DNA from: Thioalkalivibrio thiocyanoxidans ARh2
Lineage (GTDB): Bacteria > Pseudomonadota > Gammaproteobacteria > Ectothiorhodospirales > Ectothiorhodospiraceae
Assembly: GCF_000385215.1 (NCBI RefSeq)
Contig: NZ_ARQK01000058.1
Location: forward strand, 1-64,000
DNA: 64,000 bases
Direction of reading: 5' to 3'
Position numbers and translations under genes: made by a program. Of this stretch, positions 48,975 through 52,505 are shown in pieces. Each line of letters opens with the position of its first letter. Position 1 is the stretch's first letter. The notes under the pieces are model-generated. The model worked only from the letters and a program-made list of their open reading frames with translations. It ran no database searches and had not been told where the DNA came from.

Positions 48975-51347
48975 TCAGGAACGCGCCTCGCAGATCGCGA
49001 GGGCGAGCTGGTTCCTTACCGATTTCAGCGCGCGCAGGACCAGCGGATCCAGCTCCGTGCGGCCCGACGGCAACTCCAGGTACAGCAGTCCTACACACCG
49101 CTCACGCACACCCAGAGGCAATAACAGAAAGCTGCGCGCATCCAGTGCATCACGGAACTCGCCTGGAATGTAGCGGCTGATCGCCGGGTCCGAGCTGTCG
49201 CTGATCACCATGTCCTTGCGCTGCGTCATGGCCAGCGAGAGCACGTTGCCCGAGCCGGACAGCGACAGGCGCAGACGCCCGGACAGGGATTCCGCCTCGT
49301 GCCCGAACGCCGTATGGGCCACCAGCGTGCGCCGTTCCCGATCCGCCAGCATCAGCATCGCGCGGCGCAGTCCGAGCACCTGGTAGATGTTTTCCAGCGT
49401 GGCCTGCACCAGCGGGTTCAGCTCGGATCCCTCGACCATTGCGTCGAGCATTTCCGTCAGCGACTCCATCAGCGCCGCCGCCTGCTCGGCCGGCGAGGTC
49501 GACTCGGGCTCCGGGCCGTCGGGCGCCGGGCCACCATTGGCGTCCAGCAGGGCCTCCTCGTCGGGGGCATCGCCGCCCTGCGCGTTATCGCCGACCCCCA
49601 GATTCCGGCGCAGGTGCCGCAGATGTTCCTGCCCCTCGCGCGGCAGCTTGACCACGCTCAGAAACTGTTCGAGGCGCTCGCGCCCCTCCTGGATCGCTCG
49701 GCGCATACCCGTGGCCCCGACATCCAGCGAGGCCTTGTACCTGCGCCGCAGTTCCGCCAGGGCGAGATCCTGCTCCGCCGGGTCCTGGTGGATGATGCGA
49801 CCCGCCATCTCGCTGGCCAGGGTCACGACCCGGTGGAGGCGCTGGTCCGGGTCCCGTACCGCGGGCAGCGTGCCCTCGGGCGCCCGTTCGACCGCCTGCA
49901 CGATCTCGCGCGGGAAGTTCCAGTCCTCCAGTACGGCACGCGCCAGTGCCTCGTACGAGATACCAAGGACCTGGCGCGCCGCGCTGCCCTCGGAGACCCC
50001 CTGCGTCTGCCGGATCTGGATCTCGTCCGCCTCCTCGGGGAGGTAGTAGAGCGCCAGCATCCGCCCGATGTCGTGGAACAACGCGCAGACAAACGCCTGT
50101 TCGCTTTCGATTCCACCGAGCTGCCGGGCCAGCGTGCGCGCCAGCATCGCGCTGAACAGCGTCTGGACCATGGCCTGCATCAGACGAGCGGACTGGCTCC
50201 CGCCCTTGAGGTTTTCCAGCAGGACGAGGCCGAGCGCCGCCGTGCGCACCTGCTCGAAACCCAGCAGGACGACCGCCCGGGACACCGTGCGGATGTTGCC
50301 TCCGAAGTTGCTGTAGAAAGGGGAATTGGCCAGCCGCAGAAGCTTCTGTGTCGTCGCGTAGTCCTTCAGCACGGCATTCGACAGCTCGGCGACCGAGCGC
50401 TGCTCGCTGTCATCCGAACACTGGGTAATCTCGCGAATATGCGCCGAGACTCCCGGAAAATCGGGCTTGCGCCGGATCCGGCGCAGAATGAAATCGCCGG
50501 GCTCCCCCTCCTCGTTCTCGCGACCCTCGGTTACGGCAAGAAATGCCTCGCGCAGTGCCTGGGCCGTTGCGTAGCGCTCGTGCGGATCGGGCCGCTGCGC
50601 CCTCAGGGCGATGGCATCCAGGCGTTCGTCGCCCTCGCCCGTGTGCTTCGACGGCGGCTCGGGGACACCGGCTTCCATCGCATTCAGTACATCCTGGTCG
50701 GTGTCCCCGGGAAAGGCCCGACGCCCCGCGAGCAGTTCGTAGAACAGCGCACCCAGCGAATACACGTCGGCTGCCAGTGAAGGCGGTCCGCCACGCAGCT
50801 GCTCCGGGGCCAGGTAATGGCGCGTCTGGGTCTGATGCCCCGCGGCCTGCTCGCTCCCCTGCGGCAACGCAAGCCCGAGACCGGTCACGCGCGCATGACC
50901 ATCCGCGCCGACTGTGATGTTCGCAGGCTGCAGCGACCCATGCACAATCCCCTGCTCGTGCGCGGCGGCCAGGGCATCGACCATCTCGCGCATCAGCGCC
51001 AGGGCGCGATCCAGCGGCAGCCGCCCCCTGGCAAGCAGGGCATCCAGCGTTTCGCCCTCGATGTACTCGAACACGAGGTAGAGGCCCTCGTCCCAGGGCC
51101 CCGCTTCGAAGATCGCCGCGCTGTGGGGATGCCGGAAGCGGCTCACCGCGCGGGCCGCGCGCATCAGGTCGTCACGCACCTCGGCATCACCCAGGGCCTG
51201 GTGCGTCAGCGTACGCACCATCACGCGCCGGTCCAGCACGCCGTCATGCGCGACATACAGCCCGTCGCGCGCACTCTCCCCCAGTGTCTCCAGGACACGA
51301 AACCGATCGATCCAGCGTTCCTGGCTCGCGTCACGCGACCTCGCCAT
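48975..51347 (-). CDS. Pseudokinase - HDOD - GAF signalling protein
   Basis: The 790-residue protein starts at ATG 51347 behind GGAGGGGG. It has a Ser/Thr kinase-like domain (about 12-270), an HDOD domain (about 295-490; LLRLANSPFYSNFGG, VCALFHDIGRML) and a C-terminal GAF domain (about 640-790). The kinase part has the overall family pattern (YLAPEQLRGGPPSLAADVYS), but the ATP Lys position reads VMVRTL, the catalytic loop reads VHGSLQPANI (no HRD Asp, no Lys), and the DFG site reads TGLGLA. All catalytic residues are gone, so it is very probably a pseudokinase that binds partners. The HDOD domain keeps the shape seen in signalling regulators. The ligand is unknown. Confidence 0.88.
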   Translation of the reverse strand: MARSRDASQERWIDRFRVLETLGESARDGLYVAHDGVLDRRVMVRTLTHQALGDAEVRDDLMRAARAVSRFRHPHSAAIFEAGPWDEGLYLVFEYIEGETLDALLARGRLPLDRALALMREMVDALAAAHEQGIVHGSLQPANITVGADGHARVTGLGLALPQGSEQAAGHQTQTRHYLAPEQLRGGPPSLAADVYSLGALFYELLAGRRAFPGDTDQDVLNAMEAGVPEPPSKHTGEGDERLDAIALRAQRPDPHERYATAQALREAFLAVTEGRENEEGEPGDFILRRIRRKPDFPGVSAHIREITQCSDDSEQRSVAELSNAVLKDYATTQKLLRLANSPFYSNFGGNIRTVSRAVVLLGFEQVRTAALGLVLLENLKGGSQSARLMQAMVQTLFSAMLARTLARQLGGIESEQAFVCALFHDIGRMLALYYLPEEADEIQIRQTQGVSEGSAARQVLGISYEALARAVLEDWNFPREIVQAVERAPEGTLPAVRDPDQRLHRVVTLASEMAGRIIHQDPAEQDLALAELRRRYKASLDVGATGMRRAIQEGRERLEQFLSVVKLPREGQEHLRHLRRNLGVGDNAQGGDAPDEEALLDANGGPAPDGPEPESTSPAEQAAALMESLTEMLDAMVEGSELNPLVQATLENIYQVLGLRRAMLMLADRERRTLVAHTAFGHEAESLSGRLRLSLSGSGNVLSLAMTQRKDMVISDSSDPAISRYIPGEFRDALDARSFLLLPLGVRERCVGLLYLELPSGRTELDPLVLRALKSVRNQLALAICEARS

Positions 51348-51476: not shown

Positions 51477-52505
51477 TCACTTATCGCGGGCTCGCTTGGC
51501 GAGATAGGCCTTGACGTTTGGAGGCCGGTAGTCGCGAGACTGCTGGTAACGTTCTTCGACCGAGGGGTGCAGCCGGGTCGAAGAATCCGCAGGTTCGAGG
51601 TCCCGGACGAGTGTGCGGCGCAGGCGATAGATGTGGCGCCGCGACTGATGGATCGCGGCGCGAGGGTCGGGTCGCAGGCTGGCCGGGAGGTGCGGCTCGA
51701 ACTCCAGCCCTGCGGCGGATGCCTGCTCCAGCATCCAGTGGAGGGCAATATCGGCGACCTGCAGTCCCTTGTCATCAGGCGGATAGCCGCCCCCGACATC
51801 CGCGTGCACCCCGGCGAACCACTGCTGGTCCAGATCCAGCCCTGCGCGTGGCTCCCACAGGGTGGGTTCGAAATCCGCACGGCGCTCGTCGATGGCCAGC
51901 GCATGCCGGGCAACCCGGACGTTCGGGCCCAGCTTGGTGTCGTAGAACTCGTCGGTGCGATCGAACAGCCCGAGCACCGAAAACGGGATGCCCAGCGCCC
52001 CGACGGTATCCCAGGCACCCACGAAACGGATCTGCCGCGAGGGGTGGCTGTGGGCCTCGCGAAAGGCGCGCGAGTGCTTGCCGTCGGGCTTGTACGCCGC
52101 CCCCGTGCGCTTGTACAGGCGAAAGGCCTGCTCGATCAGGCGTGCATCCGGGCGCCGGAGGATCCCGCAGTTGTTGATCAGACCGCACAGGCTGCGCACG
52201 GTGTACGCACCCCGGCTGAACCCGAACAAGAAGAGCTCCGTCCCCGAGGCATAGTTCTGCACGATGTAGCGGTAGGCATCGGTGATGTTCTTGTGGATGC
52301 CCCGGCCGGTCACGCCGCCACTGACCCGGGCATGGTAGGACCCCACGCCCCAGTCATAGAACACCTGCTGGGTGTCGCCGGCGGCGTCCACGGGCGCCAC
52401 CGCCCGCGCCAGCCGCAATACGTTCGTCGGGACGTCGGACTCGACGTCGTCCTCCGGACGGTTCCAGGTCCCGTCCGCGCAGATCACGATACGGCGCGTC
52501 ATCAT
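51477..52505 (-). CDS. DUF2235 / Tle1-like alpha/beta hydrolase
   Basis: The 342-residue protein starts TRRIVICADGTWNRPEDD, the DUF2235 opening, and has the nucleophile elbow FLFGFSRGAYTVRSL (G-x-S-x-G), an Asp in FVGAWDTVGALG and a His in GVHADVGGGYP. These could form the Ser-Asp-His triad of Tle1-type phospholipases. No signal peptide or type VI secretion gene is nearby, so it may be a cytoplasmic enzyme rather than a secreted effector. It follows the sHSP gene on the same strand. Confidence 0.88.
   Translation of the reverse strand: MMTRRIVICADGTWNRPEDDVESDVPTNVLRLARAVAPVDAAGDTQQVFYDWGVGSYHARVSGGVTGRGIHKNITDAYRYIVQNYASGTELFLFGFSRGAYTVRSLCGLINNCGILRRPDARLIEQAFRLYKRTGAAYKPDGKHSRAFREAHSHPSRQIRFVGAWDTVGALGIPFSVLGLFDRTDEFYDTKLGPNVRVARHALAIDERRADFEPTLWEPRAGLDLDQQWFAGVHADVGGGYPPDDKGLQVADIALHWMLEQASAAGLEFEPHLPASLRPDPRAAIHQSRRHIYRLRRTLVRDLEPADSSTRLHPSVEERYQQSRDYRPPNVKAYLAKRARDK

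Follow-up and report, generated by a model that had tools for sequence, protein, structure and literature searches.

A predicted pseudokinase clade of Thioalkalivibrio within a kinase–HDOD–GAF protein family

What does a kinase-like domain do in a signalling protein once its catalytic residues are gone? The question is raised by a gene of Thioalkalivibrio thiocyanoxidans ARh2 in a 64,000-nucleotide stretch of DNA (hereafter the window), which encodes a kinase-like domain linked to HDOD and GAF domains (Table 1). A sequence-only reading had proposed a non-catalytic signalling hub that might sense a nucleotide through GAF and act through HDOD. Few studies have dealt with bacterial pseudokinases, and there is no agreement on how HDOD domains work. 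Our literature searches found no paper mentioning both pseudokinase and HDOD and nothing on the combination of kinase, HDOD and GAF domains. Relatives of the protein were collected from whole genomes and GTDB contigs.

Table 1. Coordinates of the features discussed, in window numbering
Feature	Coordinates	Strand	Details
Kinase-like/HDOD/GAF protein gene	48975..51347	-	790 aa; ATG at 51347, stop 48975-48977
Predicted pseudokinase domain, residues 12-271	50535..51314	-	PknB-like by sequence and predicted fold
HDOD domain, residues 301-488	49884..50447	-	PF08668, E 1.2e-38, 133 bits vs 22.9
GAF domain, residues 643-785	48993..49421	-	PF01590, E 8e-11, 43 bits vs 22.4
R45 for the ATP-binding Lys (VMVRTL)	51213..51215	-	R in 13/13 clade members, K in 38/39 others
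S138 for the HRD Asp (HGSLQPAN)	50934..50936	-	S/A/T in 13/13 clade members, D in 39/39 others
G156 for the DFG Asp (GLG at 156-158)	50880..50882	-	G in 13/13 clade members, D in 39/39 others
W476 of the HDOD W-x-F/L-P motif	49920..49922	-	W in 13/13 clade members and all but one other homologue
DUF2235/Tle1-like alpha/beta hydrolase gene, upstream neighbour	51477..52505	-	PF09994, E 5e-83

Domain architecture and predicted fold

Pfam finds kinase, HDOD and GAF domains in that order and nothing else, apart from a weak HD match inside the HDOD domain, so the linkage described in the sequence-only reading holds. The kinase match (PF00069, residues 49–269) has an E-value of 2e-26 and scores 93 bits against a cut-off of 31.7. 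PknB leads the matches in a PDB sequence search, with an alignment spanning residues 12–277. An AlphaFold2 model built with 17 relatives has a mean pLDDT of 78; its single domains are reasonable, and with a pTM of 0.43 the arrangement between domains is unreliable. The kinase part of the model adopts a predicted PknA/PknB fold (Foldseek target TM-score 0.71–0.83), with a disordered activation loop at residues 159–173. Sequence and predicted fold agree in assigning the domain to the Hanks-type Ser/Thr kinase fold, and the earlier view that it keeps its fold motifs stands. Among solved structures, the HDOD domain is nearest to MmoQ (3p3q/3ljx), and the GAF domain is nearest by sequence to 3oov, a putative chemotaxis receptor.

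Loss of catalytic residues and its place in the family

Full-length orthologues of the protein occur in 12 other Thioalkalivibrio genomes, and residues were counted in a 52-sequence alignment of these 13 clade members and 39 other homologues; three more full-length homologues found later are also intact. The three changes noticed at first reading are real and occur together: where an active Ser/Thr kinase has the ATP-binding Lys, HRD Asp and DFG Asp, the window protein has R45, S138 and G156. Chance is excluded, because positions 138 and 156 carry Asp in each of the 39 homologues outside the clade and in none of the 13 members within it. Sequencing error or a false open reading frame is ruled out by a loss common to 13 genomes. 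The window protein has further lost the second Gly-loop Gly (S25), the loop Val (L30) and the alphaC Glu (A64), and retains the HRD His, the catalytic-loop Asn (N143), the DFG Gly, the APE motif and D194 and G199 of the C-lobe.

The loss is concentrated at functional positions. The intact set has 43 kinase columns with at least 85% conservation; 10 of these are mostly changed in the clade, comprising 7 of the 12 defined as ATP/catalytic versus 3 of the other 31 (Fisher p 0.002, a value qualified by our having chosen the 12 columns after seeing the table). The remaining columns of the kinase fold signature are retained. On this residue pattern, loss of catalysis in the window protein and its clade is well supported, and conservation of the loss in 13 of 13 orthologues marks the domain as a predicted bacterial pseudokinase.

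Could the domain still serve as a nucleotide-gated switch that binds ATP or a different nucleotide but transfers no phosphate, or have an unusual activity such as AMPylation? Arg can sometimes replace Lys in ATP binding, and N143 and the DFG Gly are retained, but the Gly loop, the Lys, the alphaC Glu and both metal-binding/catalytic Asp positions are all gone. According to a review (PMC12599244), ATP binding is almost never retained by bacterial pseudokinases in which all three motifs are missing, and we consider nucleotide binding or unusual catalysis improbable.

Within the order, the full protein occurs in 14 of 47 genomes, namely the 13 Thioalkalivibrio and T. denitrificans, which belongs to another genus in the taxonomy used. 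In the class, a match spanning both kinase and HDOD occurs in at least 27 of 370 further, evenly drawn genomes, a lower bound as two candidates were scored per genome. The kinase–HDOD(–GAF) proteins of T. denitrificans, Methylovorus, Rubrivivax and other Gammaproteobacteria share the domain order and align over their full length with the window protein, as a true homologous family. Unlike the clade, they keep the Lys (38/39) and both the HRD-type and DFG Asp (39/39) and look catalytically active. Three further observations concern such relatives. A distant kinase–HDOD homologue (L142, genome G363) has Arg at the Lys position and keeps both Asp, perhaps an independent partial loss. Two kinase–HDOD–GAF genes lie in tandem, about 40 bp apart, at G191:C113 10838-15549. 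Two tandem HDOD–GAF-type genes at G598:C1 2202705-2205780 match only the HDOD–GAF part of the profile and are without the kinase part.

Trees built from the kinase and HDOD domains each group the 13 members in a single clade, with support of 100/100 and 99/95 respectively. In both trees their sister is the intact T. denitrificans copy, 59% identical to the window protein, followed by the intact L129; the HDOD tree supports this sister placement well, the kinase tree weakly (86/32). The predicted loss of catalysis arose once, in the ancestor of the Thioalkalivibrio clade. The sequence-only reading had allowed that intact orthologues might reduce the locus to a single degenerate copy. Intact orthologues do exist, in T. 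denitrificans and in distant relatives, but a single degenerate copy is ruled out by the same loss in 13 genomes, fixed across the clade and accompanied by purifying selection. The proposal of a non-catalytic domain is thereby supported, the loss being common to every genus member with the gene.

The clade thus appears as a group of Hanks-type pseudokinases inside an otherwise intact kinase–HDOD–GAF family, and the definitions of two described pseudokinase groups (PMC12599244) set it apart from both. GLW pseudokinases have GLW for HRD and Leu or Trp for Lys, whereas the clade has HG[SAT] or HRA, and Arg. CP1 pseudokinases are linked to a COG3899 ATPase domain, whereas the window protein consists of kinase, HDOD and GAF domains.

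Constraint on the kinase, HDOD and GAF domains

Selection was assessed by pairwise Nei–Gojobori omega within two subclades; the values are simple pairwise estimates and not a likelihood test. Omega is lowest in the HDOD domain (0.03–0.04), followed by GAF (0.06–0.12), the kinase domain (0.16 and 0.11 in the two subclades) and a linker (0.33–0.51), and the N-lobe of the kinase reaches 0.07 in the window clade. The dead kinase domain remains under purifying selection that is relaxed relative to HDOD, and some decay is under way.

These values bear on the reading that the kinase domain is vestigial, that is, unneeded and without a signalling role of its own, persisting as it is folded into an HDOD–GAF protein. 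The clade stem branch measures 0.44 changes per site in the kinase tree versus 0.16 for HDOD. Kinase dN is about 3–4 times HDOD dN or more in the clade, compared with about 0.9–1.7 times in most intact pairs, many of which have saturated dS and among which a close Methylovorus pair is an exception at about 5 times. Progressive decay points the same way. L021, which lacks the Lys and both Asp, branches first in the kinase tree and keeps the Gly-loop Gly, alphaC Glu and HRD Arg that later members lose, so these three residues would have decayed later; in the HDOD tree it lies elsewhere within the clade with weak support, and this order of losses is tentative. Clade members L011 and L012 have Arg for the APE Pro (LAREQL), a sign of ongoing decay, and related HDOD–GAF proteins without a kinase domain exist. 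Against this, kinase and N-lobe omega are far under the linker values, fold columns are kept while catalytic columns are lost, and the domain is neither missing nor shortened in any member of the clade. A vestigial domain is, on balance, a somewhat unlikely explanation.

Signalling through HDOD as the output of such a hub is plausible, given that HDOD is the most constrained part of the protein and carries the conserved W476. The HDOD regulators GsmR, SadB and B. pseudomallei I2285 likewise have an HDOD output with a conserved Trp and no consistent metal-site residues (PMC9040570, PMC11004494, PMC8262913). Unlike the window protein, they are without a kinase-like domain, and they have known roles in motility and biofilm. 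In one HDOD protein without a kinase domain, changes of His had no effect, whereas changes of the conserved Trp, to which W476 corresponds by motif, and of a nearby Tyr partly did (PMC9040570). An HD doublet is present in the window protein (FHDIG) and replaced in most homologues, and there is no His at the first metal-ligand position of HDOD as aligned by eye. A metal-dependent HD phosphohydrolase is ruled out, as the His/Asp ligands are not conserved.

The GAF domain might itself sense a cyclic or other nucleotide and drive HDOD, with the pseudokinase as a passive spacer. It is conserved and lies directly C-terminal to HDOD. GAF domains bind many things, however, and the nearest solved relative is the putative chemotaxis receptor noted above, which leaves this a reading of low probability.

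Genomic context, candidate partner and working model

The DUF2235/Tle1-like gene adjoins the pseudokinase gene on its upstream side in all 13 clade loci. It is absent beside the intact T. denitrificans copy, and close orthologues were not found in 11 checked genus members without the pseudokinase. An operon was considered and the gene left as a neighbour only: the gap, about 130 bp here, widens to about 600 bp in other members, and a DUF2237-like gene lies between in at least one member. The T. denitrificans neighbourhood is housekeeping-like (trxB-like, nth-like genes) and gives no pathway hint. A rhomboid gene was rejected as a marker of the empty site, since only one genome without the pseudokinase has the close orthologue, and there in a different setting. 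A role as a defence-system kinase was likewise rejected; all PADLOC matches were to generic kinase domains (PD-T4-6, mad6 and similar) without system context.

Pfam finds only two kinases in the window genome, the pseudokinase and one receptor kinase (G000:C53 44618-46306; L156, L186). The latter has intact LAIK, HRD and DFG motifs and a HAMP domain, matches Cache weakly with a score below the cut-off, and adjoins an FHA-domain gene. Close orthologues of this pair occur in all 13 pseudokinase genomes with the kinase motifs intact, compared with 2 of 11 genus members checked, which were chosen as lacking the pseudokinase. The pair was not found in T. denitrificans, whose kinase–HDOD–GAF protein is intact. 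A naive Fisher test of co-occurrence gives p 2e-5, a value confounded by the shared ancestry of related genomes. As a sign of partnership the co-occurrence is suggestive only, and the two genomes that have the receptor kinase without the pseudokinase count against it.

The N-lobe offers a possible point of contact. We take R10, L33 and D76 to be the PknB back-to-back dimer contacts, with numbering worked out from the alignment. Their equivalents are R15, L38 and E81 in all 13 clade members; the positions are equally conserved in intact homologues and may have been retained by descent for structural reasons. In the receptor kinase, Ile takes the place of Leu at the L33 position.

The best functional precedent is MviN (MurJ) of M. 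tuberculosis, a pseudokinase of the ActPs3 family that forms a back-to-back dimer and, once phosphorylated by PknB, recruits FhaA (PMC12599244). Like MviN, the window domain has a PknB-like fold and has lost all three catalytic motifs, the dimer-contact Leu and acidic residue are kept, and an active receptor kinase and FHA protein are encoded in the same genome. In MviN, however, the domain belongs to a membrane flippase and its activation loop carries deletions, whereas the window domain is part of a predicted soluble HDOD–GAF protein; phosphorylation and FHA binding, shown for MviN, are only guesses here. The ActPs3 family is mostly actinobacterial, with activation-loop deletion as its hallmark and often a C-terminal transmembrane segment (PMC12599244). 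The activation loop of the window protein aligns with intact homologues save for a gap of about three columns, and HDOD and GAF follow in the domain order.

We propose, with moderate confidence, that the domain is a non-catalytic module for dimerisation or docking, carried by an HDOD output protein and perhaps in the service of the receptor kinase. A Hanks-type kinase fused to HDOD and GAF would have lost catalysis once and persisted thereafter as a module for protein interactions without enzymatic activity. Its N-lobe would most likely form a back-to-back dimer, whether with another copy of itself or with the sole intact Hanks-type kinase, the HAMP/sCache protein encoded beside the FHA gene. 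HDOD would act as a protein–protein output domain, its state set jointly by this contact and by GAF. In this model we infer that the domain dimerises, which protein is its partner, in which direction the signal runs and what GAF contributes. Given that catalysis is lost and that constraint is strongest on HDOD, the simplest working model has the pseudokinase dimerise or dock and so control the output of HDOD.

A more far-reaching version is doubtful. It would make the system a gammaproteobacterial counterpart of PknB–MviN–FhaA, in which the receptor kinase dimerises with the dead kinase or phosphorylates it, the FHA protein reads it and the signal passes to HDOD; the clade would then be a pseudokinase family not described before, with its loss on a single branch inside one genus. 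An intact family beside a dead clade, with 59% identity between the nearest members, provides matched proteins in which the kinase fold without catalysis, and its link to HDOD, may be compared.
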